Source: Sulfuriroseicoccus oceanibius | GTDB taxonomy: Bacteria > Verrucomicrobiota > Verrucomicrobiia > Verrucomicrobiales > SLCJ01 | DNA length: 64,000 bases | Assembly (NCBI RefSeq): GCF_010681825.2 | Contig: NZ_CP066776.1 | Coordinates: forward strand, 806,001-870,000 | Reading direction: 5' to 3' | Shown here: positions 5,304 to 63,979 of the stretch, piece by piece | Layout of the letters: every line of letters begins with the position of its first letter | How positions within the stretch are numbered: the first letter of the stretch is position 1 | The notes under the pieces: generated by a model | Told to the model about the DNA's origin: nothing | What the model saw: the letters and a program-made list of their open reading frames with translations, nothing else | Databases searched by the model: none | Translations under genes and position numbers: made by a program

Positions 5304-5649
5304 AGCGCAGGATTTCTGCCCGAGTGCGGCTCATCGACAGATACGTTCGACCAATCATTTGATGCCAGCCATCAAATAACGCGATGCTGATTTGTTGTCG
5401 GTAAAACCGTGGTTTGCGCGCGGATCGGGGACTTCCGTTTGGCGCAGGATTACACTAAATCAGGTGTGGTGAGGGGATCGAGCCCGCTGCCTGAGGTTCC
5501 GGGCAAGCGGAGGCTGGCATCTGCGCACGGACGTGGTGGGATGCAACGCAATTTGATGCCAGGCATCAAATGTGCGGGTGCGGCGGGAACGCTTGTGGTA
5601 GCGTGGATTTGGGGCTGAGCCGCTGGTGCGCAATTGGCGCAGAATGGGG
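5304..5649. other. Intergenic region with two RAYT-linked repeat elements
   Basis: No gene is supported here; the open frame at 5409-5618 runs across both repeats and matches nothing I recognise. The region contains palindromes at 5357 and 5551, each followed after about 80 bp by a TTGGCGCAG box. The second box reaches into the stop codon of the minus-strand gene that ends at 5650. Confidence 0.7.
5357..5450 (+). repeat. RAYT-linked palindromic element, copy 1
   Basis: It starts with the imperfect palindrome TTTGATGCCAGCCATCAAA (core at 5358-5376) and ends with the box TTGGCGCAGGAT at 5439-5450. The 60 bp between are not obviously conserved with other copies. Same orientation as the other four copies in the window. 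Confidence 0.75.
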
Positions 5650-14296: not shown

Positions 14297-14451
14297 TTTT
14301 GATGCCAGCCATCAAATGTGGCCGCGCATCACCTAGCGACGTAATAGTTGGTATGAAAACGACAGCGAAGTCCGGTGGGATGGGCGATGATTTGCGTAGG
14401 GCGTTGGTTGGTGTTGAGGCGAAGACCGCGGCGAAAGTTGGCGCAGGATGG
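14297..14451 (+). repeat. RAYT-linked palindromic element, copy 3 (at the transposase gene)
   Basis: TTTGATGCCAGCCATCAAA at 14298-14316 followed by TTGGCGCAGGATGG at 14438-14451, directly upstream of the RAYT coding region. This is the longest palindrome-to-box distance of the five copies (about 155 bp). It ties the dispersed elements to the transposase. Confidence 0.8.
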
Positions 14452-14490
14452 TGGGATTTGCGCGAGGGGGCGGATGGAAAAGTGGTGAGT

Positions 14491-15507
14491 ATGCAGCGCA
14501 AACGGAAGCGGATTCTCGGGGAGAAGGGGCGTGATGCTTGTTACCATGTGATGAGTCGCACCGTGGGCGGGGATGTGTTCTTCGATGATGTGGAAAAGGA
14601 GGCTCTGAGAAAGCTGATCTGGAAGATGGCGCGCTTTTCGATGGTGAAGGTGGTGACGTACGCGGTGATGGGAAACCATTTCCACGTGTTGGCCGTGGTG
14701 CCGGACGCGGAGAAGACGTTGGAGAAGTTCAGGCAACCTGGCGGAGAAAAATTGCTGCTGAAGCATATCTCGTGTTTGTACTCGCTCGATGCGGTGCAGA
14801 TCCTGGAGAGCCAGCTGCAGACGCTGCGCAAGCGGGGAGAGGAGAGGGCGAGACAAGAGATTATCGAGCGGTTGCTGGCGCGGATGTGCGATGTGTCACG
14901 CTTTGTGAATGAGGTGAAGGTCAGGTTTACCCGTTGGTACAATCGTCGGCATGATCGCAAAGGCACGCTGTGGATGGAGCGATTCAAGAGTGTGTTGATT
15001 GGCAGCGATGCGGCGATGCGTAGTGTGGCGCTGTATATTGACCTGAACCCAGTGAGGGCCGGGCTTGTAGACGATCCGGTGAACTATCGCTGGTGTGGAT
15101 GGGCGGAAGCTGAAGCTGGTGGGAGTCGCCGGGCGCGCCGAGGGATCTGCAAGGCGGTGCACTGTGCAGTGGACAGTTGGGAGCGAGGTGACGGGACGGC
15201 GCGCAAGCTCTACCGGGATGCGCTGGATTGTGTGATGGAGCGCGAAGGGAAGTCTCGTTTCGTAGAGGATGAGGCACGCAAGCCTGGTGTGATGAGGTAC
15301 TTATTGCGACGAACTCGGTACTTCAGCGATAGCTTGGTGATTGGGACGAAGGGGTTCGTGGAGAATGCGCTGCGTCGTCATTCCGGGAGCTTTTCAGAAA
15401 GGCGGCGGACGTTGGCGAGTCCGATGCGGGCGCCTGACGGTGGTGGCAGGTTGCGAGATGACGGGCACTTCACGTTGAAGAACCTGATAAAGGAGGCGTG
15501 GGGCTAA
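14491..15507 (+). mobile_element. REP-associated tyrosine transposase (RAYT, IS200-like Y1 superfamily)
   Basis: 338 residues from ATG 14491; the frame is open back to 14299, but the first 64 codons overlap the palindromic element and lack family similarity, so I prefer 14491 (ATG 14353 is the alternative). Family signatures are clear: RDACYHVMSRTVGG at the N-terminus, the HUH metal site as HFH at residues 63-65 (GNHFHVLAVVP), and RFTRWYNRRHDRKGTLW with RFKSVLI and LYIDLNPVRAGLV. A Tyr in or near RWYN is the probable nucleophile. RAYTs bind and cut REP-type palindromes as single strands. The protein looks intact, and the matching palindromes lie around it, so it may be active or recently active. 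Confidence 0.9.
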
Positions 15508-17751: not shown

Positions 17752-17845
17752 ATTTGATGCCAGGCATCAAAGTGGCTTGTGGGCGGCGGATGCTGAAAAA
17801 TGGAGGGCTGCGCGTTTATTGGGCGCGTGCGAGGTGGCGCAGGAT
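17752..17845 (+). repeat. RAYT-linked palindromic element, copy 4
   Basis: TTTGATGCCAGGCATCAAA at 17753-17771 (perfect arms, one-base loop) and box TGGCGCAGGAT at 17835-17845. The 94-bp length equals copy 1. Confidence 0.72.
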
Positions 17846-17907: not shown

Positions 17908-18009
17908 ATTTGATGCCAGGCATCAAATGCGATGATGAGGCGCTGTCTCCCTTAGGAGCGGGGATTGGTGAGTGTTTGGTGCACTCTCAGTTGGCGCAGG
18001 ATGGGGCTA
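17908..18009 (+). repeat. RAYT-linked palindromic element, copy 5
   Basis: TTTGATGCCAGGCATCAAA at 17909-17927 and TTGGCGCAGGATGGGGCTA at 17991-18009. The extended distal box matches copy 2 (TTGGCGCAGAATGGGGCTA). Confidence 0.75.
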
Positions 18010-18094
18010 ACGGGGAGGTGGGGGAGCGGAAGCTGCCGGGAATCTATGGGTGTGCTTTGGGTTGCGCTTGATTGGCGGGCGGCGATGGTTGGGT

Positions 18095-19426
18095 GTGTCC
18101 GAGGCCAAGAAAATTTTATCGCTCGCTGGGCCGCTCGTGATTGGGCAGGTCGGGCAGATGCTGCTTGGCGTGGCAGACACGTTGATGGTGGCCAAGCTCG
18201 GCGTGGTGGAGTTGGCTGCGTTGACGTTTGCGACGTTGATTTTCCACGTGCCGTTTGTGTTTGGGATCGGAATGCTGACCTGTGTTGCGGTGCGGACCTC
18301 GGTGGCTCGGGGTGCCGGTGACCGGGCCAAGGGGAGGGCGGTGTGTCGCAATGGCTTGTACCTTGGCGCGGCGACGGGGATTTTGTTGTTTTTGCTCGTT
18401 GGCTTGGGTTTGGTGCCGTTTCTCGGGTGGTTCGGGCAGCCTGAAGCCGTCGTGACGCGCACGCCTAGTTACTATTTGTTAATTATGGCGTCGGCGGTTC
18501 CGGCGCTGATGAGTATCGCGCTGAAGAACCATGGCGACGCGATGGACCGACCCTGGCCGTCGTTCTGGATTTCGTTTGCGGCGATCGTGCTGAACATCGG
18601 GCTCAACTGGGTGTTGATCTATGGCAATCTGGGAGCACCTGCTCTGGGGCTTGAAGGGGCGGGCATCGCGACATTGATCGCCCGCATTTTGATGTTTGTG
18701 GCGATGGTGGTTTGGTTGACGCGATCCAAGGTGTTGCACGACTGGGTGCCGCGTCGGTGGTTGAGGGTTCCGGATTTTGGTGAAATCCGGCAGCAGTTGA
18801 AGCTTGGTGTGCCGGCGTCGTTGCAGACGGTGGCCGAGGTTGGAGCGTTTTCAGCTTCCGGGTTGTTGATTGGCAAGTTTGGTGCAATCGCGTTGGCTGC
18901 GCATCAAGTGGCGATCACGTGTGTGGCGACGGCGTTCATGGTTCCGCTGGGGTTGTCGATGGCGCTGACGGTGCGGATAGGCGAGGCTTACGGGGCGGAA
19001 GATGGTCCGAGAATGCGCCGGATTGTGCGTGCGGGGTGGGGGATGTCGGTAGGCTTCGCGTTGTTCAGTGCGGTGGTCTTCTTGTGCTTTGGCGAGCCGC
19101 TGGCTGCGATGTTCCTAGAGGAACCTGATGTAATTGTGCTGGCGGCGGCGTTGCTCGGGGTTGCCGGGCTTTTCCAAGTGGTAGACGGCCTGCAAGTGGC
19201 GTCGCTGGCGATGTTGCGGGGAATTGAAGACGTGCGGGTGCCGGCGCTTTACGGGTTCGCTGGGTACTGGCTGGCGGCGATCCCATTGGCGTACGTGCTG
19301 GCATTCCACACATCGCTCGGGGCGGTTGGCGTGTGGTGGGGGCTGGCTGCCGGGCTGACGATTGCCGCGGTGGTCCTTGGTGGGCGGCTGTGGAAGAAGG
19401 TCGGGAGGTATTGCGATACCATTTAA
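18095..19426 (+). CDS. MATE-family multidrug/cation efflux protein
   Basis: Na+ or H+ antiporter of the NorM-like MATE family, 12 predicted helices. I prefer GTG 18095 (VSEAKKILSLAGPLVIGQVGQMLLG, the usual family start, 443 residues); the frame is open from GTG-type starts back to 18050. Family hallmarks: GPLVIGQ in helix 1, GVADTLMVAKLGVVELAA, GLNWVLIYG and the second-half LKLGVPASLQTVAEVGAF. The last codons (Asp-Thr-Ile-stop) come from the terminal repeat of MITE copy A, so the insertion has set the C-terminus. A repeat element also lies just upstream. Confidence 0.9.
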   Translation: MSEAKKILSLAGPLVIGQVGQMLLGVADTLMVAKLGVVELAALTFATLIFHVPFVFGIGMLTCVAVRTSVARGAGDRAKGRAVCRNGLYLGAATGILLFLLVGLGLVPFLGWFGQPEAVVTRTPSYYLLIMASAVPALMSIALKNHGDAMDRPWPSFWISFAAIVLNIGLNWVLIYGNLGAPALGLEGAGIATLIARILMFVAMVVWLTRSKVLHDWVPRRWLRVPDFGEIRQQLKLGVPASLQTVAEVGAFSASGLLIGKFGAIALAAHQVAITCVATAFMVPLGLSMALTVRIGEAYGAEDGPRMRRIVRAGWGMSVGFALFSAVVFLCFGEPLAAMFLEEPDVIVLAAALLGVAGLFQVVDGLQVASLAMLRGIEDVRVPALYGFAGYWLAAIPLAYVLAFHTSLGAVGVWWGLAAGLTIAAVVLGGRLWKKVGRYCDTI

Positions 19427-19617
19427 ACGGTCATCTTGGAGTAACCGATGGGAATTGAATGAGTGGGTCAGGGATGAAGGAAGTGATCTTGGCGGGGGCA
19501 TTTTGAGTGATGCCGCGTTTATCACCGCTCAAGTTGCCCACTAGCATCGCGGTTTGCGCCTTGCCTTATTCGAAAAAGCTCTCCGCCATTCCGCCAAATT
19601 GACCGTTTGATTGGTAT
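19416..19617. repeat. MITE-like element, copy A (202 bp)
   Basis: Left end ATACCATTTAAACGGTCA and right end TGACCGTTTGATTGGTAT are inverted repeats; over 29 bp I count about 23 matches. The inside has no coding capacity. It shares its length and internal sequence (GCATCGCGGTTTGCGCCTTG, CTCTCCGCCATTCCGCCA) with copy C. The left end overlaps the last codons and stop of the MATE gene. Confidence 0.85.
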
Positions 19618-19831
19618 GACTTGAGAGGGGCAGTCGTGTCGGGCGCGGCCATCGGGATTGCTTTGGGCTTCGGCCGCGTCATTGGCTCGGCCGGGTAAAT
19701 CACTCCCTTTTACCTGGGGTGGCGCTCGCCTGATGCTCGCTGACCCCAGGCTGTTATGAGGCTCGCCTTCAGCGAGGGGTTGGCGGCGCTTGGGCTTGAG
19801 TTAGCGCTATCTATATCATTTCGTTAGTCCG
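19427..19831. other. Intergenic region: MITE copy A plus hairpin element
   Basis: After the MITE (to 19617) about 90 bp hold nothing I recognise, then a hairpin element at 19713-19776 precedes the stop of the minus-strand nuclease-like gene. Confidence 0.55.
19713..19776. repeat. Double-hairpin intergenic element
   Basis: CCTGGGGT (19713-19720) pairs with ACCCCAGG (19743-19750), enclosing GCTCGCCTGATGCTCGC. A second small hairpin CTCGCCTTCAGCGAG follows at 19762-19776. No T-tract follows, so it does not look like a simple terminator. Only one copy is seen in the window. From its GCTCGCC half-sites I suspect a dispersed repeat. Confidence 0.45.
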
Positions 19832-20560
19832 CTAATCTTGGGCTTCGCGTTGTTTGGCGGCTTGTTGGGCGAGGCGGCTGATTTTCCAAATGCCGAGAAG
19901 TTCTTGTTGGGCGGCGCTTCGTTCGTCAGTGAGGAATTCCAGATACTTGCGTTGGTTGCGGCCGAACGGAGTGTGCGATGCCTTGCCGGTGATGGCTGCG
20001 AGCCCTTCGCGAACGAGCATTGCGGAGAGGTAACGACGTTTGTTGGCGGCTTGGTCGTCGACTTGAACGAAGGCGAAGCGCCGGTTGTTGGGGTCGCCGG
20101 TGGGTTGGAATCGGGTGATGATGCGGAAGTTGTTTTCCTGCAGGGTCTTCAGGGTGAAGTCGCGTGCCGCATTGCTCATGGCGAGCATTTCGTCCATCGG
20201 GGGCGAGCCAAAGTAATCGTGGAGCGCTGTGATTTTCGTGCGTGTGCGGTCGGTGAGTTCGCCTGGTGGGCATTCCACGAAATAGAGTGCCAAATGATAG
20301 ATCTTGCCGTCTTCCTTGACTGTGATGTGATCTCCTTTCCACGTCTCCAGGGATTCGAGCGAGCAGTTTGCCTTTTCGATCACGGTGTATTGCGAGTCGA
20401 TTCTCTCGTTGGGATCGGGCTCGGCGGTTTCTGTGGGTGTTGGGCGTTCGCCGGCGTCGAGATAGGCGGGGCGACGTTCGACGATAGTGGATATGATGTA
20501 GCCGATGCTGGCGAGGACAGCCAGAGTGAGCACGATGTTGAGGGCGAGTCGCTGGTTCAT
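19832..20560 (-). CDS. Membrane-anchored thermonuclease-like (SNase fold) protein
   Basis: 242 residues from ATG 20560 (MNQRLALNIVLTLAVLASIGYIIST, signal anchor). The longer frame to 20779 only translates the 8-bp tandem repeat and is rejected. The C-terminal 150 residues resemble the staphylococcal nuclease fold: RIITRFQPTGDPNNRRFAFVQVDD, RRYLSAMLVREGLAAITG and KYLEFLTDERSAAQQELLGIW. The canonical Arg/Glu/Arg active-site pattern is not clear, so it may be a non-catalytic or divergent member. It would face the periplasm. Its promoter region contains the tandem repeat. Confidence 0.7.
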   Translation of the reverse strand: MNQRLALNIVLTLAVLASIGYIISTIVERRPAYLDAGERPTPTETAEPDPNERIDSQYTVIEKANCSLESLETWKGDHITVKEDGKIYHLALYFVECPPGELTDRTRTKITALHDYFGSPPMDEMLAMSNAARDFTLKTLQENNFRIITRFQPTGDPNNRRFAFVQVDDQAANKRRYLSAMLVREGLAAITGKASHTPFGRNQRKYLEFLTDERSAAQQELLGIWKISRLAQQAAKQREAQD

Positions 20561-20608
20561 GGTAGCAGGAGGATGGTGGCCAAGGTGCCAGATGTGGGCG
20601 GGGGATGG

Positions 20609-20704
20609 GAAGTCTGGAAGTCTGGAAGTCTGGAAGTCTGGAAGTCTGGAAGTCTGGAAGTCTGGAAGTCTGGAAGTCTGGAAGTCTGGAAGTCTGGAAG
20701 TCTG
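20609..20704. repeat. Tandem repeat, 12 perfect copies of GAAGTCTG
   Basis: Twelve uninterrupted 8-bp units, then a degenerate unit. It sits between divergent genes: 48 bp upstream of the nuclease-like start (20560, minus) and 64 bp upstream of the methyltransferase start (20769, plus). On the plus strand it is open in the methyltransferase frame (reading GSLEVWKS), but there is no reason to think it is translated. Confidence 0.95.
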
Positions 20705-20768
20705 GAAGCTGGGGGGAAGTGAGGAATTCGGGAGATTTGGACTGCGGTGGATCTTGGGGCGGGGTAGG

Positions 20769-21365
20769 ATGGGCGCCACAATGGATTGGGATGCACGATA
20801 TCGGGATGGCAGTATGCCGTGGGATCAGAATGCGCCACACCCGTGTTTGGCGGGGATGCGGCGTCGGGCGAGGTGGCGTGGGCGGGTATTGGTGCCGGGG
20901 TGTGGGCGTGGCCACGATTTGGTGTCGCTTGCCGAAGCGTTGCCGGGTGGCGAGGTGACGGGGATCGACATTGCGCCGGCGGCTGTCGAGCGGGTGGTGG
21001 ATTTGCCGGTGAATGCGTCGGCTCGCGTGGGGGACTTGTTCGATTTGGGTGACGACTGGGCGGGCGCGGTTGATTTGGTGTGGGAGCACACGTGCTTTTG
21101 TGCGATCGACCCATCGTTAAGGGCTGGCTATCGAGATGCCATGGCCCGCTTGATCAAGCCGGGAGGGAAGTTGGTTGGCGTCTTCTTTCTGACGATGGTG
21201 GAGGGTCCGGGCGGCGGGCCGCCTCACAACACGGAGATCCACGAGTTGGTGTCTTTGTTTTCGCCGGAGCACGGGTTCCGTGTGCGGAGGTTGGGGCTGT
21301 TGGAGGCTACGTTTCCACAACGGGTTGGCGAGGAGTGGCTGGCGGTGATCGAACGGTTGGGGTGA
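20769..21365 (+). CDS. Thiopurine S-methyltransferase-like SAM-dependent methyltransferase
   Basis: 198 residues from ATG 20769 (ATG 20781 also possible). The TPMT family pattern is clear: WDARYRDGSMPWDQNAPHPCL at the N-terminus, SAM-binding VLVPGCGRGHDLVSLA, acidic loop VTGIDIAPAAVERV, DLVWEHTCFCAIDPSLR, and LIKPGGKLVGVFF followed by GPPHNTEIHELVSLF. Bacterial members methylate small chalcogen (S, Se, Te) compounds; the true substrate here is unknown. The frame continues upstream through the tandem repeat, without conserved sequence. Confidence 0.86.
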   Translation: MGATMDWDARYRDGSMPWDQNAPHPCLAGMRRRARWRGRVLVPGCGRGHDLVSLAEALPGGEVTGIDIAPAAVERVVDLPVNASARVGDLFDLGDDWAGAVDLVWEHTCFCAIDPSLRAGYRDAMARLIKPGGKLVGVFFLTMVEGPGGGPPHNTEIHELVSLFSPEHGFRVRRLGLLEATFPQRVGEEWLAVIERLG

Positions 21366-21494
21366 GATTTTCCGATCTCTGGTGCCAATCCATGGTGGCG
21401 CTGAGACGGAGTGAGAGGCGAGCCTGGGACTTTTTTTCGATTCGGGAACTCTCAACTTTCGGGGGGCGGGGGCATCGGGTATGGTGGCCGCCCT

Positions 21495-24400
21495 ATGGCC
21501 GAATCCGGAGCAGACGAGACAACGCAGACCACGACAAAACCAGCAAACCGCGACGGCGATTTTGTCCATTTGCACCTGCATACGGAGTATTCGACGCTGG
21601 ATGGAGCGGTGCGGATTGGAGATCTGGTCGAGCGTGCGGCCAAGCTGGGGATGCCTGCGGTGGCGATGACCGACCACGGAAACTTGTTTGGCGCGGTGAA
21701 CTTTTTCCTCAAAGCGAAGAAGGCGGGGATCAAGCCGATCTTTGGCTGTGAGATGTATCTGGCGCCGGGCAGTATGCACGACAAGAAGCGCTTGCCGGGG
21801 CAGAAGATCGCGTCGCATTTGACGCTGTTGGTGGAGAACGAGACGGGGTATCAGAACCTGACCAAGTTGGTCTCGATGGCGCATTTGGATGGCTTTTACT
21901 ACAAGCCGCGGATCGACAAAGACGCGCTGCGTAAGTATTCCGAGGGCCTGATCTGTCTCAGTGGCTGCATTGTGGGTGAGATCAACCAGCACATCCAGGA
22001 CGACCAGCTGGATCTGGCGCGCCAGAGCATCCGCGATTTCATCGACATCTTCGGCAAGGAGAACTTCTTCCTTGAGATGCACAACCACGGGATGGAGGCG
22101 CAGATCAAGTGCAATGCCCAGTTGGTTGAGTTCGCCAAGGAGTTTGGGCTTCGCACAGTGGCGGCGAACGACGTGCATTTCCTGGATCGCTCCGACCATG
22201 AGGCGCACGATGTGATGATTTGCATCGGCACCGGGGCGCGGGTGATTGATGAGAACCGGATGCACTACTCCGAGGAGGTGTATTTCAAGACGGGGGCCGA
22301 GATGCGCGAGTTGTTTGCCGACCATCCGGAGGCCTGCGATGTGACCCTGGAGATTGCCGAGCGTTGCAACTACGAGATGCACTTGGACTCGGCGAGTATT
22401 GCCAAGTATCCGGTGGTGGAGTCGCCGGATGGAGGTGACCGCAACCAGTACTTCCGCAAGCTGTGTCACGAGGGATTGGTGTGGCGTTATGGCGAGGAGC
22501 GTGCGACGACCGACCAGGAGTTGATCGAGCGATTGGACTACGAGATCGGCGTGATGGAGAAGATGGGCTTCGTGTCGTACTTCCTTATTGTGCGTGACTT
22601 CATGGACTGGTCGCGGCGTCAGGATATTCCGTTGGGACCTGGCCGTGGATCCGCGGCGGGCTCGTTGGTGGCTTATGCGCTGGGGATTACCGATCTTTGT
22701 CCGATCCGCTTCGGGTTGATTTTCGAACGATTCCTGAACCCGGAACGTAACAGTCCGCCCGACGTCGATATCGACTTCTGTCAGACGCGGCGTCCGGAGG
22801 TGATCCAGTATGTGCGTGAGAAGTACGGTGAGCGTGCGGTTTCCCACATCATCACCTTCGGTACCATGGGTGCCAAGAGTGTGATCCGCGACGTGGGACG
22901 TGTGATGGGGTGGTCGTTTGGTGAATCGGACCAGGTGGCGAAGATGATCCCTGCCGAGTTGGGGATGACGCTTTCCAAGGCGCGCGAGACTAATGCCGAG
23001 TTGGCAGCGTTGATTGAGAACGATGGGCGGGTGCAGGAGTTGTGGCGTCACGCGACCTTCCTTGAAGGTTTGACCCGCGGTACCGGTATCCACGCGGCGG
23101 GTGTGGTGATCTGTGACACCGACATCGACAACTTCGTGGCGCTGACCCGTGGTAACGAGGGGGAAGTGGTGACCCAGGCGGACATGGGCGCGATCACTGA
23201 GATCGGCTTGCTCAAGATGGACTTCCTCGGGCTGAAGACACTCACGGTGATTCAGGACGCGGTGAACTGGGTGCGTCGTCACACGCCGGACTTCGATATT
23301 AACGCGCAGCCGTTCGATGATAAGAAGACCTACGAGTTGCTGCAGCGGGGTGAGACCAAGGCTGTGTTCCAGTTGGAATCCGGTGGTATGGCTGCGACCT
23401 GTGTGAACCTGGGGGTGGACCGAATCGAGGACATTATCGCATTGTTGGCCCTGTACCGACCGGGGCCGATGGACCTGATTCCGAGCTTCATCGATCGTAA
23501 GAAAGGGATCGAGAAAGTGGAGTACATGCACCCGCTGCTCGAGGAGGTGAGTGAGGAAACCTTCGGTATTTTGATCTATCAGGAGCAGGTGCAGAAGGCG
23601 GCCAACCTGTTGGCGGGATACTCGCTGGGTGAGGCTGACTTGTTGCGTCGTGCGATGGGTAAGAAGAAGCTCTCCGAGATGGTGGCCCAGCGGAAAAAGT
23701 TCGTCGAGGGCGCGGCCCGGGTGAACAACATTCCGGCAAAGCAGGCCAACGATATCTTCGACTTGTTGGAGAAGTTCGCGGGTTACGGTTTCAACAAATC
23801 GCACTCCGCTGCGTATGGCTTGATCAGTTACCGCACCGCGTTCCTGAAGGCGAACTATCCGGTGGAGTTCATGTCGGGCGTGATGTCCAACGAGATCAAC
23901 AACACCGAGAAGATCTCGTTCTTCGTCGCCGAGTGCATGGCGATGAACATTCAGATTCTGCCGCCTGATATCAACAAGTCGCTTTCCAAGTTTGCTCCGG
24001 AAAACACGACCGGTGGTCCGATCGAGGATGCGGATGCGATTCGTTACGGGTTGTCGGCGATCAAGAACGTGGGTGAGGGTGCCGTGGCGTTGATGATCCA
24101 AGAGCGCGACAAGAACGGTGAGTTCAAGTCGATGGAGGATTTTGCATCGCGCGTGGATGCCAAAGCGGTGAACCGGAAGCTGCTTGAGAGCTTGGTGCGT
24201 GCGGGTGCGTTCGATTGGACGGGCGAGCCGCGGTGGAAGCTGTTTGGCAAGATTTCGACGGTGTTGGCTGGGGCTTCGGCGGTGCACAAAGACCGTGCGA
24301 GCGGTCAGGTGTCGTTGTTTGACGCGTTGGAGCTGTCGTCTGCGGCGGCGCCACCGAAGCCGGCGGATGATGATCAGAACACAGAACCGGAGTGGACGCG

Positions 24401-25085
24401 CAAAGAGATGCTCGACTTTGAGCGTGAGTTGCTCGGGTTCTACGTCAGTGGTCACCCGCTGGACGATTACCGCGGGCATTTCTCGTCTGGAGACCATTCC
24501 TTGCTTGGTGATATCGACCATTTGGTCATGAGCGACGTGTATCGCGGCCCGTGGAAAGACCGGCCGAAGGGGCACAAGGATGAGAAGCATCCGTACTCGT
24601 TTGTGGCGTTCATCCAGGGGGTGATGACGAGGTTCTCAAAGAACAACAACAAGCCGTTCGCCATCTTGACCGTGGAGGATTACTCCGGATCTCAAGAGGT
24701 GGGGGTGTTTGGTAAGACCTACGACAGGTGCTCCGAGTTGTTGGTGGCTGGGGGTGTGATCAAGATCGACGCGTTGGTGTTGCCTGACGAGCGCTCTGGC
24801 GGGCGCAAGTTGAGTGTGGAGAAGGTATCGGCGGTGAGTCCGCGCGAGCATTCCTACGAGCTCGATGGCGTGGTGACGCTGGTGGTGGACTGCCGCAAGC
24901 CGTTGGCGAAGGAGTTGGCCGACGTGAAGGACGTGGTGAGCGAGTATCCTGGGCGGGTGCCGTTGCATTTGCTTTTCCTGCAGAAAGACGGAAGTCAGAT
25001 CCGAGCGGAAGCGGATGAGAAGTTCGCGGTGGAGCCATCCAGTGGGTTCAAGGTGGCGGCTTCGCGTTGGTTGCCACGGAGGTAG
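21495..25085 (+). CDS. dnaE: DNA polymerase III subunit alpha
   Basis: Replicative polymerase catalytic subunit, 1196 residues from ATG 21495 (the upstream extension to 21411 is not conserved). N-terminal PHP domain (FVHLHLHTEYSTLDGAVRI, TDHGNLFGAV), palm domain with GPGRGSAAGSLVAYALGI and the catalytic PPDVDIDFCQTRR, fingers with GIHAAGVVICD and LLALYRPGPMDLIP, a beta-binding/HhH region (YGFNKSHSAAYGLISYRTAFLKANYP), then an OB-fold (FVAFIQGVMTRFSKNNNKPFAILTVEDYSG) and a C-terminal region. Length and order match DnaE1, not the error-prone DnaE2. MITE copy B begins two bases after the stop codon. Confidence 0.97.
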   Translation: MAESGADETTQTTTKPANRDGDFVHLHLHTEYSTLDGAVRIGDLVERAAKLGMPAVAMTDHGNLFGAVNFFLKAKKAGIKPIFGCEMYLAPGSMHDKKRLPGQKIASHLTLLVENETGYQNLTKLVSMAHLDGFYYKPRIDKDALRKYSEGLICLSGCIVGEINQHIQDDQLDLARQSIRDFIDIFGKENFFLEMHNHGMEAQIKCNAQLVEFAKEFGLRTVAANDVHFLDRSDHEAHDVMICIGTGARVIDENRMHYSEEVYFKTGAEMRELFADHPEACDVTLEIAERCNYEMHLDSASIAKYPVVESPDGGDRNQYFRKLCHEGLVWRYGEERATTDQELIERLDYEIGVMEKMGFVSYFLIVRDFMDWSRRQDIPLGPGRGSAAGSLVAYALGITDLCPIRFGLIFERFLNPERNSPPDVDIDFCQTRRPEVIQYVREKYGERAVSHIITFGTMGAKSVIRDVGRVMGWSFGESDQVAKMIPAELGMTLSKARETNAELAALIENDGRVQELWRHATFLEGLTRGTGIHAAGVVICDTDIDNFVALTRGNEGEVVTQADMGAITEIGLLKMDFLGLKTLTVIQDAVNWVRRHTPDFDINAQPFDDKKTYELLQRGETKAVFQLESGGMAATCVNLGVDRIEDIIALLALYRPGPMDLIPSFIDRKKGIEKVEYMHPLLEEVSEETFGILIYQEQVQKAANLLAGYSLGEADLLRRAMGKKKLSEMVAQRKKFVEGAARVNNIPAKQANDIFDLLEKFAGYGFNKSHSAAYGLISYRTAFLKANYPVEFMSGVMSNEINNTEKISFFVAECMAMNIQILPPDINKSLSKFAPENTTGGPIEDADAIRYGLSAIKNVGEGAVALMIQERDKNGEFKSMEDFASRVDAKAVNRKLLESLVRAGAFDWTGEPRWKLFGKISTVLAGASAVHKDRASGQVSLFDALELSSAAAPPKPADDDQNTEPEWTRKEMLDFERELLGFYVSGHPLDDYRGHFSSGDHSLLGDIDHLVMSDVYRGPWKDRPKGHKDEKHPYSFVAFIQGVMTRFSKNNNKPFAILTVEDYSGSQEVGVFGKTYDRCSELLVAGGVIKIDALVLPDERSGGRKLSVEKVSAVSPREHSYELDGVVTLVVDCRKPLAKELADVKDVVSEYPGRVPLHLLFLQKDGSQIRAEADEKFAVEPSSGFKVAASRWLPRR

Positions 25086-25087
25086 TC

Positions 25088-25189
25088 ATACCATTTTTGC
25101 ACACAGCTCAGGTAGCCCGCTAGCATCGCGCCTTGCTTCACTCGAAAAATCTCTCCGCCATTCCGCCAATTTGACCGTTCAAATGGTAT
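25088..25189. repeat. MITE-like element, copy B (internally deleted, 102 bp)
   Basis: Retains the first bases of the left end (ATACCATTT) joined directly to the internal GCTCAGGTAGCCCGCTAGCA segment, and a full right end (TGACCGTTCAAATGGTAT). About 100 bp of the 202-bp form are missing. Confidence 0.8.
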
Positions 25190-25310
25190 GGCTGTTGGGG
25201 GCACCGTGCTGCGATCGGGTGGGTTGTGCTGGAGGTCCCATGGGTTTGCCATGGGGGGGCGCTTGGCGGGCGTTGACTGAGGTGGGGCAGGCAGTGTATG
25301 ATGCTGCGTC

Positions 25311-25850
25311 ATGGAGTCAGCGGAGAAGCTCGATCAGGTGGAAGTGGGGGAAGCCTCTCTTGATGAGGTGCGGGGCGAGGTGGTGGAGGTTTTTTCGGAT
25401 ATTGCGCGGTTGTTGGGATTGCCGAAATCGGTGGGTGGAATTTACGGGTATTTGTTCACGTCGCGGGCACCGAGGAGTCTGGATGATGTGGTGACTGAAC
25501 TGAAGGTGAGCAAGGGGTCGGGGAGTCAGGGGTTGGCGGTGTTGCGGCAGTTGGGCGCGGTGCGGTCGGTGACGCTGGAGGGGAGTCGGCGTGATTATTT
25601 TATAGCGGAGACTGAGTTGAAATCGTTGGTGGCTGGGTTCATTCGTTCGGAGTTGGCGCCGCAGGTTGAGCAGGGGTTGGAGAAGTCGGTGATGCTGCAG
25701 GACAATGTGCGGAGGATGCGCGAATTTACGGCTGGGCGCGGTGAGGATTTTGAGGAGGCTCAGTTCATGCAGGAGCGGCTGGACAAGCTCGGGCAGTGGC
25801 ATCGGCGGGCGAAGTGGGTCCTCCCTTTCATTGCGCGATTTTTGGGCTAG
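25311..25850 (+). CDS. GbsR/MarR-like winged-helix transcriptional regulator
   Basis: 179 residues. The central region IARLLGLPKSVGGIYGYLFTSRAPRSLDDVVTELKVSKGSGSQGLAVLRQLGAVRSVTLEGSRRDYFIAE is a GbsR-type winged helix: HTH formed by the LDDVVTELKVSKGSGSQGLAVL stretch, wing at the GSRRDYF turn. C-terminal helices (about 110-179) would dimerise. GbsR relatives control osmolyte or membrane transport genes, but no such gene is adjacent. A NusG paralogue follows 32 bp downstream, so the two may be an operon. Flanked on both sides by MITE copies. Confidence 0.8.
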   Translation: MESAEKLDQVEVGEASLDEVRGEVVEVFSDIARLLGLPKSVGGIYGYLFTSRAPRSLDDVVTELKVSKGSGSQGLAVLRQLGAVRSVTLEGSRRDYFIAETELKSLVAGFIRSELAPQVEQGLEKSVMLQDNVRRMREFTAGRGEDFEEAQFMQERLDKLGQWHRRAKWVLPFIARFLG

Positions 25851-25882
25851 GGTGCCGACGAATTCCCCCCCCCAACTTCGTC

Positions 25883-26425
25883 ATGTCAAAATCATCCGAG
25901 CAAGAGATCGAGTACGGCTGGATCTGCGCCCGTACGCAGAAAAAGAGTGAACACATCGCAGCGGCTACGCTGTCGCAGATGGAGGATGTTGAGGCGTTTT
26001 GCCCGCGGTTGAAGTTCAAGCGCAAGACGAAGCGCGGCGTGGTCTGGTTCACTGAGGCGATGTTCCCGTGCTACATTTTTGTAAGGTGCCCGTTGGGGGG
26101 CTCGTTCAGCGCGGTGCGGTATGCGCGTGGTGTGGTTGGGTTGGTTGAGTTTGCCGGCGAGGTGCCGACGATCCCTGACCATCAGATCGAAGCGTTGCGG
26201 CAATTGGTGGGCGACGACGATGTGCGGGTGATCGAGAAGGCGGTTGAGCCTGGTCAAGAGGTCGAGGTGACCGAGGGGCCGTTGAAGGGCTTGGTGGCCG
26301 TGGTGACCCAGGTGCTGCCAGCGACGGACCGTGTGCGTCTGTTGCTTGAGTTTCTCGGGCAATCGCGTGAGATCGAGGTGCCGATCGATAGTGTGATCCC
26401 GCCGAAGCGCCCGAAGGGTGAGTGA
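25883..26425 (+). CDS. NusG-family antitermination paralogue (RfaH/UpxY-like)
   Basis: 180 residues from ATG 25883. The N-terminal NGN domain is recognisable: YGWICARTQKKSEHIAAATL, VEAFCPRLKFKRKTKRGVVWFTEAMFPCYIFVR and AVRYARGVVGLVEFAGEVPTIPDHQIEALRQLV. A KOW-like segment follows (VEVTEGPLKGLVAVVTQVLPATDRVRLLLEFLG). Housekeeping nusG usually sits beside secE and rplK, which are absent, so this is a specialised paralogue of the kind that lets polymerase read through long polysaccharide operons. The large exopolysaccharide cluster 4 kb downstream is an attractive but unproven target. Confidence 0.85.
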   Translation: MSKSSEQEIEYGWICARTQKKSEHIAAATLSQMEDVEAFCPRLKFKRKTKRGVVWFTEAMFPCYIFVRCPLGGSFSAVRYARGVVGLVEFAGEVPTIPDHQIEALRQLVGDDDVRVIEKAVEPGQEVEVTEGPLKGLVAVVTQVLPATDRVRLLLEFLGQSREIEVPIDSVIPPKRPKGE

Positions 26426-26487
26426 TTCTAAGTAGGCTACCGAATTGCCGCGATGCTTGCGGGCTGTCTGAGCCGTGAGCCCGCCGC

Positions 26488-26578
26488 CTGTAAACCGTCC
26501 CTACGGGACGCATCATCCTTGCGCTTATGTCCGGAGGTTGGAACCTCCGGCTATGCGGTAACCTGTCGCTTCGCGACG
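26488..26578. repeat. Triple-hairpin repeat, copy 1
   Basis: Three consecutive hairpins: CGTCCCTACGGGACG, CCGGAGGTTGGAACCTCCGG and GTCGCTTCGCGAC, separated by short A/T-richer spacers. A second copy with the same order and spacing lies at 63888. Confidence 0.85.
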
Positions 26579-26649
26579 CTCTCGATCAATCGGAGTTAGT
26601 TCTTGCTGGTTGAGCTTGTAGGAAGGTGCGGTCCCGGTCGGTTGAAGTA

Positions 26650-26851
26650 ATACCATTTCAACGGTCACCTTGGCGGAACCGATGAGGATTGGATCAGTGG
26701 GAGATGAAGTGAAGACAGCGATCTTGGCGGATCTTATTGAGTGGTGCGGCGTTGCTCATAGCTCAGGTAGCCCGCTAGCATCGCGGTTCGCGCCTTGCCT
26801 CTCTCGGAAAAGCTCTCCGCCATTCCGCCAGATTGACCGTTCAAATGGGAT
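26650..26851. repeat. MITE-like element, copy C (202 bp)
   Basis: Left end ATACCATTTCAACGGTCA, right end TGACCGTTCAAATGGGAT; about 24 of 29 terminal bases are inverted-repeat matches. The length is identical to copy A. No coding capacity. A clear target-site duplication is not visible. Confidence 0.85.
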
Positions 26852-26998
26852 AAGGCGACTGTTCAAATGGAGTGAGATGCGCTTGAGGGGGGGGGCAGAA
26901 AGAATTGAAGATCGCATGTGTCCCCGCGTGCGTGCGCGTTCGTATCGGGAGATTGCACCCCTGTTTTTTTGGGGCGTGGTCTTTTGTGAGTGTGCGCT

Positions 26999-57814: not shown

Positions 57815-60800
57815 ATGAAATTCACCAAATTTGCTGATTCCCGTCGTTGCTTGTGGCGCGCATTTTCCGTCTCGCTTGGGGCGCTTGCTTTGATTGGAGG
57901 AGCTGTCGAGTCGGCGTCGGCGCAGACTACGGTGGCGATTACCAATGGAAGTTTCGAAGACGGGGTGGCCGGGAATGGTGCGCCGTCGGGGTGGGAGCTG
58001 ACACGGGGAGGAACGAATGACCTGGGCGTGGCGACTGGTGGGATAGACGGTTCGCGGATGTTGTGGATGGGGCCGGACACGGCGATTCGCCAGGATTTGG
58101 GCTACACCCTGCAGGCGGGTGAGACCTTGACTTTGCAGTACCGGAGTTCGCGCGGCGCGAACTATGGACGACGGATGCAGTTGTTGGCGAAAGATGGCTC
58201 AAGCTATCAGCTGATGGCAGAGACAACCACGCAGACGGGGAGCGGTAGCTGGCCGAATATCACGCTGGAATACACGGTGGCGGCTGGTTACGCGGGCAAG
58301 GAGTTGGCGCTGCAGATCGTGGGGGATGACACCAACGACCTGAATACGGAAGACTATAATGAGTTTGATCACTTCCGCCTGACGACATCGCGCACCGTGC
58401 TCACGCCGTATGCGTGGTATCGCGCCGATAGCGGGGTGAGTGAGGACGCGGGCGGCGCGGTTTCCAACTGGGCCAACCAAGTCGGGACCGGCGACGACTT
58501 GGGCAATGTGGTCGGGCGCCCGTCGATGGTTGCGCTGTCGCGCAGTGGTGGCGGATCCGCCGAGGTGGTGGCATTCGACGGCAGCTCCTCATTGTGGGCG
58601 CCAACGTCGAGTTGGGGGAGCGTGGATGGCAACCGAACGGTGGTCGTGCATGCGCGGGTCACAGCGGCCCGTGACGGCTTTTTGTTCGACGGTAGTACTG
58701 GTGTCGGATTAACCCGTGCCCAGGTGCGCTCGAACACGTGGCAGGCAGGGGTGGCAAGCTCAGGTGGGTTTGCCAACGCCGATACCGACACGACAGGGGT
58801 CACTCTGAACACGTGGCAGACACACATTTTCACCTACGCCGAATCGGGCGGAAGCACACAAGTCACGCATTACATCGATGGATCCGAGGTGGGAACGCAT
58901 TCGGTGGCGCGGGACGGCGCGCTGGGTGGCTTGATCATCGCGGGCAACGGCGCCGCAGCAGCCACGCTTCCGACCCAGGTGGCCGAGGTTTTGGTGTACA
59001 ACAGCGCACTGAGCGCAAGCGAACGCAGCGAGGTGACGACCGACCTGACCGCGCGTTGGGGGGATCTGATGGACCTGCCTTATGATTATCAATCGGCGGC
59101 GGTGGTGCAGACGTCGGAGGAGATTTCGATCTACGGCATCCACGGGGTGTTGGCGTTGCAGGTGAACTCGACGGGGAATGTCACGCCGTTCAACCTGACC
59201 GGGCTCACATTTGATCTGACGGGAACCACGGATCTCGGCGACATCGAGGACGTGCGATTGTACTCGAGCCCGAGCGCAGGTGCGTTTGATCCGAGCCGCG
59301 CGACCTTGGTGGAAACCCTGACCGGACCATTTGACGGGACTCTGAGCTTTTCCACTCCGGCTCCGGTGGCATCGAATAGCCATCACTTCTGGGTGGCGGT
59401 TAAGTTGAAAGGAACGTCGACTTTGGGCGATGTGCTGGACGGTCGCATCACTGGGTTTTCCATTGATGGAGCGGATGCTGGCAGCTATGTGCCGACGGGA
59501 ATTGATCCGGCGGGCGAGCTGACGGTCAATTCGCAGTTCTTCTCGACAATCGTGCGCAAAGAGGGCGACGACGGATCGCGGAGCTACCGCATTCCGGGCT
59601 TGGCGACCTCGAACGACGGCACGTTGATCGCGGTGTACGACATCCGATGGAATGGCAGCGGTGACCTTCCGGCGAACATTGACGTGGGAGTTTCCCGCTC
59701 GACGGATGGTGGCTTCACCTGGGGGCCAATGATCACGGCGATGGACTTTGATGGCAGCATTGCCGGGTCGAGTGGCAACGGAGTGGGCGATCCGTCCATT
59801 CTCGTGGACCGTGAGACGGGGCGCATTTGGTGTGCGGCGCTGCACTCGTTTGGCAACAATGGCTGGGCGGGATCCGGTCCGGGGCTCACTGCCGAGGAGA
59901 CCGGGCAATTTGTACTAAATTACTCCGACGACGACGGCCTGACCTGGAGCGAGCCGGTTTCGATCACCGAGAGTATCAAGGATCCTGCGTGGCGTTTGTA
60001 TTTCAACGGACCGGGCAAGGGGATCTGTCTGCGCGACGGGACATTGGTTTTCCCAGCCCAGTACCGCGATGAAAGCGGTACGGCGCGCTCGAACTTCATC
60101 TACTCGACCGACAATGGCGCCACTTGGAACCACGGCGCGCCGGCGGTTGCCTCAGGTAGTCCATGGACGACCGAGGCGCAGATGATCGAGTTGGACAACG
60201 GAGATTTGTTGATCACGATGCGCAACCACGCGGGCAATGGCCAGCGGGCGTGGGCGACGTACTCGTGGGATCATGAGACCGAGACCATTGCCGACGGCAC
60301 GTGGAGCGCGATCCGCTACGACCAGACCGATCCGGTGGTGATGGCGTCGATCGAACGCTACAGCTCGACGCTCGACGGAGACCCGTATTCGGGCCTGCTT
60401 TTCGCCAACCCGGACAACAGCAACCGCTCGCGCATGAGCATCCGCCTCAGTTTGGATGAAGGCCAGACCTGGGCGTACAAGCGCAAGATCGATGACCGTC
60501 CGGCGGCGTACTCGTGCATGACGATTCTGCCGGATGGCGATATCGGGATTTTCTACGAGACGGGTGATCAGTCATCGGTAGCGGAGATGCGCTTTTGCCG
60601 GTTCCCGGTCGAGTGGGTGGTGGGCGATCTGACGGTCGACACCGATGGCGATGGGATGCCGGATTTCTATGAGGACACCAATGGCCTCAACAAGAACAGC
60701 GCGGCGGATGCTACGCTCGACGCCGATAGCGACGGGGCGAACAACTTGAACGAATACCTCGCCGGAACGGATCCACAGCAGGCACCGGGCGGTGGCAATC

Positions 60801-63700
60801 TGGGCGTGGTCGTGAGTGCGGGCAGTGACTTTTCCACCATCGAACCAACGGCGACTCTGGCGGGCTCTGCCAGCGATGACGGGTTGCCGAACCCACCGGC
60901 TGCGTTCACCACAGCGTGGAGTGTAACCTATGGACCGGGGGCGGTTACGTTTGCGGATGCGAGTTCGCCGACGACCGATGTGACGTTCGCCGCTGAGGGG
61001 ACTTACGTGCTGCGTCTGACAGCAAATGACGGCGCCGTGATCACGGTGGATGAAGTGCGGGTCGACTACGCATTGACTCCGCCTGCCGGGGTGTATGCAA
61101 ACTTCCGCGCGGGAGATGGCGTGACGGCTGACGGCTCGGGCACGATTTCCAATTGGGCGGACCAGTCCGGTAATGGGCGCAATTTGGACCAGGTGGTGGG
61201 AGCTCCATCGGTGAGCGAAACTCTGGGACTGAGCGGTCAGTCGGTGGAGCTGGTTGTCATGGACGGCGACGACTCGCTGTGGGCGGGGAATGGCTTCGGT
61301 GTGATCCAAGGCAACCGTACGATCGCAGTCCGCGCGCGGTTGGGTGATGTGGCTAATGGCTACCTTTTCGATGGCAGCAGTGTCGCTGGACTGACCCGCG
61401 CCCACGTGGCGGCGGGCGATTGGCAGGTCGGCGTGCAGGTGGATGACTTTGCCGGAGCCGATCCGGTGACCACCAGCGTGGAGGCCAACGATTGGCAGGA
61501 CCATGTGTTTGTGTTCATTGAATCGGGCGGTAGCACCCATGTGACCCATTGGATCGATGGTGTCCAGGTGGGATCACATACGGTGGCGACGGATACTTCG
61601 CTCTCCGGATTGATCCTGGGCATGAGCGGCGCCGCTACCGATGGACTGAATGTGGAGTTCGCCGAAGTGCTGGTTTACGACCGTGCATTGGATGTGGGCG
61701 AACGCGATGAGTTGCAGCGCTACCTCGACCTGCGCTGGGCGGAGCTTGGCGATGCGCCGATGGATTTCACCTCTGCCTCCGTCGTGCAGACTGCGGGCGA
61801 TGTGTTCAAGTTCGGCACCTATGGGGTGGCGGCGCTGGCGGTGACCTCGTATGGCAATCAGGGCAGCTACAACCTGACCGGACTCGAGTTCGACCTCAGC
61901 GGGACCACTGACCTAGGCGACATCGCGGAGGTGCGACTTTACTCGACCGGCGGCGACCGTGAGTTTTCGTCCAGTAGCGCGACCTTGATTGCAACACTGG
62001 ACGGACCATTCAACGGACCGCTTACGTTCAATGCCAGCGCGGCCGTGACTCCAGGCATCCACCATTTCTGGGTCGCTGTGAAAATGAGCGGCGCCCCGGT
62101 GGACGGCGATGTAATCGACGCGCGCATCACTGGCTTCTCGGTGGACGGGCCGTCGGCGGGCAGCTACGTGCCAAGCGTGACCTCACCGCCTGAGTTCCTC
62201 ACCGGAACGTCTGGCTTCTTCTCCACCGTGGTGCGCAAGGGCGGCGACGATGGATCCGGTAACTTCCGCATCCCGGCGATGGTGGTTTCCAATGCGGGCA
62301 CCGTGATTGCCGGCTTCGACGTGCGCTGGGATGGCAACGATATCTCGTCGCCGGACCTGCCGGCGAATATCGATACCGCAGTGATGCGCTCGCTTGATGG
62401 AGGCTACACGTGGGAGCCTATGATCACGGTGATGGACTTCGATGCCAACGAGGCCGGATCCCAGGGCAATGGCGTGGGTGATCCTACCTTGCTCGTTGAT
62501 CGTAACACCGGCCGCATCTGGTGCGCGGCGCTGTGGTCCAAGGGGAACCGCGGGTGGTGGGGCTCGGGTCCGGGACTCACGGCCGACGAAACCGGACAGT
62601 TCATGCTCAGCTACTCGGACGACGACGGCGTGACGTGGTCGGAGCCGTTCTCGATCACCTCGCAAGTGAAGGACCCTGCGTGGAACCTGTATTTCAATGG
62701 TCCGGGCAAGGGGATTTGCACCCGCGAGGGGACGCTGGTTTTCCCTGCTCAGTACAAGGATGCCGGCGGCACGCCACGCTCGAACTTTATCTATTCGACG
62801 GATAATGGAGCGACGTGGGTTACCGCACCTGCGGCAATTGCATCGGGCAACCCATGGACGACGGAGTCGCAGATTGTCGAGTTGGACAACGGGGATCTGT
62901 TGTTGTCGATGCGCAACCATGATGGCCGCAAGCAGCGCTTGTGGGCCCGTTTCTCATGGGACCGCGGTGCCGGTGAAACGATAGCCGACGGCTCATGGAG
63001 TGCGCCTTGGTTCGAGCAAACCGATCCAACCTGCATGGCAAGTGTCGAGCGCTACCGTTCGACGCTCGACGGCCATCCGTTCTCGGCGTTGTTGTTCTCC
63101 AACCCGGACAGCACGGCGCGTGAGAAGATGAGTATCCGCCTGAGCTTGGATGAAGGGGTGACCTGGCCGTACAAGCGCAAGATCGACGATTTGTTGTCGG
63201 CCTACTCGTGTCTTGCTGTGATGCCGGATGGGGATATCGGGATCTTTTATGAGACTGGGGAGCAATCATCGATCACTCGCATGGTGTTTGCCCGCTTCCC
63301 ACTCAGCTGGCTGGTGGGCGATACGGACACCGACGGCGACCGTATCCCGGACTTCTATGAAGATGTCATGGGCCTGAACAAACAAGACGCGACCGACGCG
63401 GCAAAAGATGCTGACGGTGACGGTGTTAGCAATCTAGGTGAATTCGAGGCCCAGACCGATGCGAAGCGCAAAGACTCCGTGCTCAAGGCGGACGTCGTGC
63501 CGCAGGGCAATGGCTTCGCGCTGCGTTGGGACTCGGTCGAGTACGTCCACTACCGCGTGGAGAAGTCGGCCTCGCTCGAAGACGGAAGCTGGACTCCGGT
63601 CCCCGGTTATGAAAGTGTTCGAGCTGCCGGATCTGTGACTAACATTACTTTGCCGGAAAGTGCCGATCCACGCTGCTTCTATCGCGTGGTGACCCAGTAG
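57815..63700 (+). CDS. Giant secreted sialidase with two catalytic modules (GH33)
   Basis: 1961 residues with a signal peptide ending ESASA-QTT. Order: a beta-sandwich (about 38-190), LamG-like domain (about 195-420), BNR-associated beta-domain (about 425-570), sialidase propeller 1 (about 575-940), Asp-rich calcium-type repeats (about 943-990), PKD-like domain (about 996-1087), second LamG-like (about 1092-1312), second BNR-associated domain, sialidase 2 (about 1468-1832), Asp-rich repeats and a C-terminal beta-domain. Each propeller has the RIP motif (YRIPG, FRIPA), Asp boxes (STDGGFTW, STDNGATW, SLDEGQTW), the Arg of MSIRLSLDEG and the Tyr of AYSC before MPDGDIGIFYE-type sequence. Both look catalytically complete. 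Should cleave terminal sialic acids or related nonulosonates outside the cell. No PEP-CTERM tail. Confidence 0.93.
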   Translation: MKFTKFADSRRCLWRAFSVSLGALALIGGAVESASAQTTVAITNGSFEDGVAGNGAPSGWELTRGGTNDLGVATGGIDGSRMLWMGPDTAIRQDLGYTLQAGETLTLQYRSSRGANYGRRMQLLAKDGSSYQLMAETTTQTGSGSWPNITLEYTVAAGYAGKELALQIVGDDTNDLNTEDYNEFDHFRLTTSRTVLTPYAWYRADSGVSEDAGGAVSNWANQVGTGDDLGNVVGRPSMVALSRSGGGSAEVVAFDGSSSLWAPTSSWGSVDGNRTVVVHARVTAARDGFLFDGSTGVGLTRAQVRSNTWQAGVASSGGFANADTDTTGVTLNTWQTHIFTYAESGGSTQVTHYIDGSEVGTHSVARDGALGGLIIAGNGAAAATLPTQVAEVLVYNSALSASERSEVTTDLTARWGDLMDLPYDYQSAAVVQTSEEISIYGIHGVLALQVNSTGNVTPFNLTGLTFDLTGTTDLGDIEDVRLYSSPSAGAFDPSRATLVETLTGPFDGTLSFSTPAPVASNSHHFWVAVKLKGTSTLGDVLDGRITGFSIDGADAGSYVPTGIDPAGELTVNSQFFSTIVRKEGDDGSRSYRIPGLATSNDGTLIAVYDIRWNGSGDLPANIDVGVSRSTDGGFTWGPMITAMDFDGSIAGSSGNGVGDPSILVDRETGRIWCAALHSFGNNGWAGSGPGLTAEETGQFVLNYSDDDGLTWSEPVSITESIKDPAWRLYFNGPGKGICLRDGTLVFPAQYRDESGTARSNFIYSTDNGATWNHGAPAVASGSPWTTEAQMIELDNGDLLITMRNHAGNGQRAWATYSWDHETETIADGTWSAIRYDQTDPVVMASIERYSSTLDGDPYSGLLFANPDNSNRSRMSIRLSLDEGQTWAYKRKIDDRPAAYSCMTILPDGDIGIFYETGDQSSVAEMRFCRFPVEWVVGDLTVDTDGDGMPDFYEDTNGLNKNSAADATLDADSDGANNLNEYLAGTDPQQAPGGGNLGVVVSAGSDFSTIEPTATLAGSASDDGLPNPPAAFTTAWSVTYGPGAVTFADASSPTTDVTFAAEGTYVLRLTANDGAVITVDEVRVDYALTPPAGVYANFRAGDGVTADGSGTISNWADQSGNGRNLDQVVGAPSVSETLGLSGQSVELVVMDGDDSLWAGNGFGVIQGNRTIAVRARLGDVANGYLFDGSSVAGLTRAHVAAGDWQVGVQVDDFAGADPVTTSVEANDWQDHVFVFIESGGSTHVTHWIDGVQVGSHTVATDTSLSGLILGMSGAATDGLNVEFAEVLVYDRALDVGERDELQRYLDLRWAELGDAPMDFTSASVVQTAGDVFKFGTYGVAALAVTSYGNQGSYNLTGLEFDLSGTTDLGDIAEVRLYSTGGDREFSSSSATLIATLDGPFNGPLTFNASAAVTPGIHHFWVAVKMSGAPVDGDVIDARITGFSVDGPSAGSYVPSVTSPPEFLTGTSGFFSTVVRKGGDDGSGNFRIPAMVVSNAGTVIAGFDVRWDGNDISSPDLPANIDTAVMRSLDGGYTWEPMITVMDFDANEAGSQGNGVGDPTLLVDRNTGRIWCAALWSKGNRGWWGSGPGLTADETGQFMLSYSDDDGVTWSEPFSITSQVKDPAWNLYFNGPGKGICTREGTLVFPAQYKDAGGTPRSNFIYSTDNGATWVTAPAAIASGNPWTTESQIVELDNGDLLLSMRNHDGRKQRLWARFSWDRGAGETIADGSWSAPWFEQTDPTCMASVERYRSTLDGHPFSALLFSNPDSTAREKMSIRLSLDEGVTWPYKRKIDDLLSAYSCLAVMPDGDIGIFYETGEQSSITRMVFARFPLSWLVGDTDTDGDRIPDFYEDVMGLNKQDATDAAKDADGDGVSNLGEFEAQTDAKRKDSVLKADVVPQGNGFALRWDSVEYVHYRVEKSASLEDGSWTPVPGYESVRAAGSVTNITLPESADPRCFYRVVTQ

Positions 63701-63793: not shown

Positions 63794-63887
63794 GAGGTGG
63801 AGTTGATGGGCGTCCGCCTTTTGAACGATTGATGGGTGCAGGTGTGGGGGCCTGCAGGTGAGGTTTGCGTCGGTGATTCCATGCCCT

Positions 63888-63979
63888 CCTGTAAACCGTC
63901 CCTGCGGGACGCCTCATTCTTGGGCTCATGTCCGGAGGTTGAAACCTCCGGCTAACCGGTAAGTTGTCGCTTCGCGACG
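63888..63979. repeat. Triple-hairpin repeat, copy 2
   Basis: CGTCCCTGCGGGACG, CCGGAGGTTGAAACCTCCGG and GTCGCTTCGCGAC in the same order and spacing as copy 1 at 26488. Differences fall mostly in loops and spacers. Confidence 0.85.

Follow-up and report, generated by a model that had tools for sequence, protein, structure and literature searches.

A MITE of Sulfuriroseicoccus oceanibius belongs to a phylum-wide family of elements sharing a covarying hairpin core that may serve their propagation

For the most part, bacterial MITEs have been treated one species at a time, as dead IS derivatives with incidental hairpins. Examples such as Correia/NEMIS, ERIC, RUP and QMITE have been reviewed (PMC10969869, PMC2229807), and the repeat analysed here resembles them: they are 100-250 bp long and intergenic, have terminal inverted repeats (TIRs) and a strong predicted secondary structure, duplicate their target and lack a transposase. 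As a difference from their descriptions, the internal hairpin of the present repeat is kept by compensatory changes across genera and TIR types. Our search of the open-access literature on bacterial MITEs found no report of comparable cross-genus covariation, which weakly suggests that the family has not been described before.

Elements of the IS1031 group, within the IS5 family, characteristically duplicate a TNA target, and ISLrh, a member of this group, ends in GAACCTGT (PMC12016507); IS5 itself duplicates 4 bp, at sites including CTAG and CTAA (PMC11677980). The elements described below share TNA and CTAG duplications with this family, and those of one related genome (G020) combine TNA duplications with the GAACCTGT ends of ISLrh, but they have no transposase gene, and the lineage of our locus ends in TACCATTT. 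The REP/REPIN sequences that go with RAYT proteins are likewise dispersed intergenic hairpins, and a RAYT-like gene lies near our locus; however, HUH elements of this kind insert without target duplication, whereas here direct duplications and long TIRs are found. The TRIP1 repeats of E. coli (PMC10888264) also lie 3′ of genes and have a conserved predicted RNA fold. In the available part of their description they occupy few fixed loci (five) and no target duplication is mentioned.

The locus lies in a 64,000-nt stretch of the S. oceanibius genome (contig NZ_CP066776.1, positions 806,001 to 870,000), here called the window, in which an initial annotation had noticed three copies of a repeat within 7.5 kb. 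Their features, in window coordinates, are as follows (R1 is a covariance model introduced below, and its E-values are rough).

19416..19617, + strand: full copy 1 in the aligned orientation, with the better structural signal on the complement strand (R1 49.3 bits, E 3.5e-9)
19516..19563, + strand: predicted 48-nt core hairpin of copy 1, placed by comparison with the defined 48-nt core
25088..25189, + strand: copy 2, an internal deletion derivative (weak R1 match, E 0.039)
26648..26650, no strand: left target-site duplication TAA of copy 3, read from the sequence
26650..26851, + strand: full copy 3, with the unit TACC...GGGA at 26651-26850 (R1 63.1 bits, E 3.1e-12)
26651..26681, + strand: left TIR of copy 3, TACCATTTcAACGGTCA plus a weaker extension
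26750..26797, + strand: predicted 48-nt core hairpin of copy 3, CGTTGCTC...GCGCCTTG with the apical loop CCCG, compared with the 48-nt core
26820..26850, - strand: right TIR of copy 3
26851..26853, no strand: right target-site duplication TAA of copy 3, read from the sequence

Copies 1 and 3 are both 202 bp long, as first reported, and can be aligned end to end. The element, of about 200 bp, has no coding capacity and no transposase inside, and its copies lie between ordinary genes or overlap gene ends. Copy 1 overlaps the 3′ end of a MATE-family gene (18050-19426), and copy 2 is located immediately 3′ of the TAG stop codon of a DNA polymerase III alpha gene (21411-25085). Copy 2 had been taken for a deletion copy that keeps both termini; it is an internal deletion derivative with the right ~70 bp intact, but only ~9 bp of its left end (ATACCATTT) are left. 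The imperfect TIRs, initially put at about 29 bp, consist of ~18 near-perfect bp with a weaker extension to ~30 bp, and the outermost A/T that had been counted in is part of the duplicated target, the mobile unit being TACC...GGTA. The flanks of copy 1 read CGA and TGA, its target duplication having eroded. The three copies form a local cluster, as the genome average is ~1 copy per 85 kb and copies are dispersed over the chromosome.

A genome-wide search, which the initial annotation had proposed, gave numbers far beyond chance. BLAST with copy 3 found 41 matches in the complete 3,496,488-bp genome, 27 of them near full length at 79-100% identity, and the end motif at no more than 2 mismatches matched 66 times, as compared with 0 times for a reversed-pattern control. 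Alignment of 27 copies with their flanks revealed sharp unit ends, TACCATTT...AAATGGTA: the sequence is conserved inside, and divergence is random just beyond the TWA at the junctions. A variable purine-rich stretch lies in the left part of the element, and conservation is strong over the right ~120 bp. Identical 3-bp flanks were found in 16/27 copies, and the flanking triplets were TTA on both sides in 10 cases, TAA on both sides in 5 and mixed in 0 (Fisher P = 3e-4). The sharp ends, the TIRs, the lack of coding capacity, the dispersal of copies in both orientations and the matching 3-bp flanks that vary among copies point to DDE-type transposition. The repeat, at first called MITE-like, is a MITE: it is mobile but non-autonomous, and its insertion creates 3-bp duplications of a TWA target.

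The same flanks bear on single-strand transposition of the HUH/RAYT (IS200/IS605-like) type, in which the product of the RAYT-like gene at 14299-15507 would recognise the hairpin ends. This Y1_Tnp protein is encoded 4 kb away, and hairpins and single-strand asymmetry would suit HUH enzymes; however, direct 3-bp flank matches and long TIRs would be unexpected, and a different palindrome, TTTGATGCCAGGCATCAAA, adjoins the RAYT-like gene and looks like the substrate of that protein. We regard such transposition as very improbable.

Neither the window, in agreement with the initial annotation, nor the complete genome yielded a transposase bounded by such ends. The search for an IS with the same ends, which that annotation had also proposed, detected no autonomous element (at no more than 2 mismatches) in the complete genome, where no convergent end pair surrounds a transposase and no protein matches PF01609 or PF13359, the two transposase families searched. 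One candidate autonomous pair (2000651/2003563) was rejected, as it encloses ordinary genes. Among the PF01609 loci of six relatives, none has these ends. We therefore refrain from assigning the element to the IS5 family; its autonomous partner seems to have been lost or to belong to a transposase family other than these two. The readable target duplications match the IS5-family type, being either TNA (3 bp) or CTAG-type (4 bp). Together with the terminal sequence of one relative lineage, that of G020, the duplication type suggests a transposase of IS5-family type. For the window-lineage end TACCATTT, no match to a known IS1031 end was found.

Plain BLAST with the element missed the whole family, giving no convincing relative among the other genomes searched. 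When 84,980 species and a set of viral contigs were scanned for exact 18-mers, only single matches without a partner end appeared, which we attribute to chance, and plasmids and phages gave no match to the element. The Rfam 15 search likewise gave no family match, only spurious matches outside the element. Relatives surfaced only when we searched by end pattern, and then by structure model. The end-pattern search of 387 genomes of the order led to a genus (g39) with many copies bearing the same ends, among them 56 end matches in genome G163 and 27 in genome G329. The g39 elements are ~205 bp long and have TWA duplications, with identical flanks in 27/36, and the interior of one G329 element aligned to the window family with a score of 204 (shuffled mean 103, sd 16).

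The covariance model R1 was built from g39 elements alone, the copies of the window species not being used. It recovered these copies, including both full copies in the window, with E-values, rough as they are for R1 and R3, down to 6e-17. Members were found by R1 in 24/113 genomes of the order, the same genus and family being represented among them, and by R3, a covariance model of the core region, in 35/388 genomes of the phylum, representing 25/199 genera and usually having several copies each. At 60 loci from R1-positive genomes, the terminal repeats vary among lineages, and the duplications, where readable, are TNA (TTA, TAA, TGA, TCA) or CTAG/YTAR: TGA/TGA and TCA/TCA in G092, TTA, TAA and TGA in G020, and CTAG/CTAG in G109, G007, G050 and G019. 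Young copies that hardly differ from one another occur in G163, G020 and G092. As delineated by these models, the element family spreads through a bacterial phylum, sharing a predicted hairpin core while TIRs and target type differ.

One fold is common to 16 g39 elements, in which a stem formed by the terminal repeats and an inner stem are accompanied by a short hairpin, CAGCnnAGCTG, and by a long one whose end reads CATAGC-YC-GCTATG. In the alignment of these elements (A3), standard pairs occupy 91.6% of pair cells, as compared with 26-44% in slid controls, and two-sided changes affect 22/57 pairs, with 82 two-sided cells versus 31 +/- 4 after shuffling. A 48-nt core, CGTTGCTCGTCRGTYR-stem-CYCG-stem-..CCYTCCTCGCGCCTTG, is gap-free in 50 elements and has a conserved CYCG apical loop. 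Its 2x2 internal loops are TC/TC in 34/46 and 40/46 sequences, which corresponds to tandem GA/GA on the complement strand. In 45 sequences aligned by sequence alone (A4), compensatory changes occur at 31/31 modelled pairs, and the covariation score is 0.669 versus 0.191 for shuffled and at most 0.187 for slid controls. In the window family itself, the middle part of the 48-nt core has diverged, and some consensus pairs are broken.

Similar arms could also be found in ordinary MITEs, their palindromic interior being a by-product. Template switching or gene conversion would then keep the arms alike, and the fold would not be under selection. Co-changes at both ends of the element, seen in two copies (L024 and L026), would fit such arm-to-arm copying, as would the inconsistent strand preference: G329 and G318 favour the complement strand (12/12), G163 favours the opposite strand, and the window family favours neither. 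We dropped strand bias as a proof of RNA, as the lineages disagree. The copies within a genome, in which no constraint is seen, also speak for a by-product. However, arm copying would erase mismatches, yet the TC/TC internal loops and the CYCG loop are conserved. Moreover, the core is gap-free in 50 of the elements examined, and wobble pairs lean to one strand, favouring that with tandem GA by 24 versus 8 when one invariant T-G is left out. We therefore consider a mere by-product unlikely.

A conserved structured RNA with covariation had been named in the initial annotation as the finding that would speak against a mobile element. Covariation is very strong across relatives, but mobility stands: since target duplications coexist with it and the copies within a genome show no constraint on structure, covariation does not refute mobility. 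The element is both a MITE and a carrier of a conserved covarying structure.

What maintains this structure can be approached through the age of mutations. Singletons, i.e. young mutations, fall equally on stems and loops, with 0.70 and 0.69 per site in the window family and 0.32 and 0.36 in G163, which indicates that inserted copies decay freely. In the window family, singletons are also flat across segments (0.65, 0.69 and 0.64), and older shared variants amount to 1.11 per site in the variable segment versus 0.23 in the core. As young mutations spare neither stems nor loops, the constraint would act on propagating lineages and not through host use, and the hairpin seems to be kept by propagation. 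A trans-acting RNA would not protect the structure of its own source copy, which makes a cis-acting signal the likelier of the two. From these sequence patterns, we infer that the hairpin is a cis-acting propagation signal.

In the window species, the start of 13/28 copies coincides exactly with the stop codon of a gene that has at least 100 codons, as compared with 8/220 nearby intergenic TNA sites (P = 3e-9), the control being approximate in that a copy's own gene stop is absent from it and long open frames were taken as genes. In other lineages, 14/58 copies versus 35/588 control sites, under the same approximation, start at a stop codon. On one of their strands, TNA and CTAG both include a stop codon, which the target duplication restores, so that insertion there leaves the gene intact. 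This restoration probably explains the frequent exact starts at stop codons.

Frequent placement directly after stop codons would also be expected of a structured RNA useful to the host, e.g. a 3′-UTR stabiliser, a terminator or a small RNA, which spreads by transposition and works at the locus of each copy. The very strong covariation and the tandem GA motifs on one strand would suit such an RNA. Against it, young mutations are equally frequent in stems and loops, most relatives lack the element, and relative to the gene just upstream 13 copies are in sense and 14 in antisense orientation, which disfavours a strand-specific role in mRNA. A host-useful RNA appears quite improbable to us.

The reading that we prefer, and hold to be reasonably probable, is that the elements are non-autonomous DNA transposons moved in trans by an IS5-type DDE transposase, with the internal hairpin as a cis propagation signal. 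The transposase, of IS5-family type, would act in trans and come from an element that the genome no longer appears to contain; it would cut at TACCATTT...AAATGGTA and insert the unit at a TNA target, of which 3 bp are duplicated. The hairpin, with its 48-nt core, TC/TC internal loops, CYCG loop and covarying stems, would be selected in propagating lineages and not in inserted copies. Folding would involve one strand, either of single-stranded DNA or of nascent RNA, and the folded hairpin would be bound by the transposase or by a host factor. More tentatively, and with less than even confidence, we suggest that the elements may represent a class of DDE-mobilised elements that spread via a folded single strand, in which a hairpin with stacked tandem G.A motifs is the cis mobility signal across differing TIRs. 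If so, the hairpin would be a structural module recognised by different IS5-type transposases or by one host factor.

The family offers one covarying hairpin core that can be traced through a phylum while TIRs and target type change. By comparing young with old mutations, selection on propagation can be told apart from selection that the host exerts. This makes a long-standing question testable now, namely whether it is the element or the host that benefits from the stem-loops of small mobile repeats. Landing on stop codons would, additionally, be a simple reason why IS5-type targets are well tolerated in compact genomes.

A second repeat family, besides the 202-bp element, consisted of three perfect hairpins in succession (GTCGCgaaGCGAC, CCGGAGGTTtcAACCTCCGG and CGTCCCgtaGGGACG), and about 46 matches to it were found across the genome by BLAST. 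Two copies lie in the window, and further examples were present among the extracted loci (L042:574-800; L074-L103):

26484-26578, three-hairpin repeat
63885-63979, three-hairpin repeat

The left end of the 202-bp element was located about 95-108 bp upstream of several copies of this repeat. A tandem array (locus L082, G000:C1:582030-582980) had a unit of about 399 bp, in which the right half of the 202-bp element came after the three-hairpin repeat; this arrangement looks as though the short element had arisen by deletion from a longer composite.

At two loci of the relative genome G020 (L267 and L268), same-orientation pairs of family members stood on either side of 2-2.5 kb, and they are possibly composite mobile units. 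Among the elements of genomes G329 and G318, the complementary strand gave the more stable fold in all cases (12/12), with 18 G.U against 2 A.C mismatches; the trend in genome G163 was opposite.

Other repeats in the window included an 8-mer, GGAAGTCT, repeated about 12 times in tandem where an open frame ends (20584-20735) and readable on both strands, and tandem paralogous sequences (59663-60628 and 62354-63322; 72-78% DNA identity, 2.69 kb spacing). A palindrome, TTTGATGCCAGGCATCAAA, recurred next to a Y1_Tnp (RAYT-like) gene (14299-15507):

5551-5593, palindrome
14297-14339, palindrome
17752-17794, palindrome
17908-17950, palindrome

The palindrome and this gene likely constitute a REP/RAYT pair.
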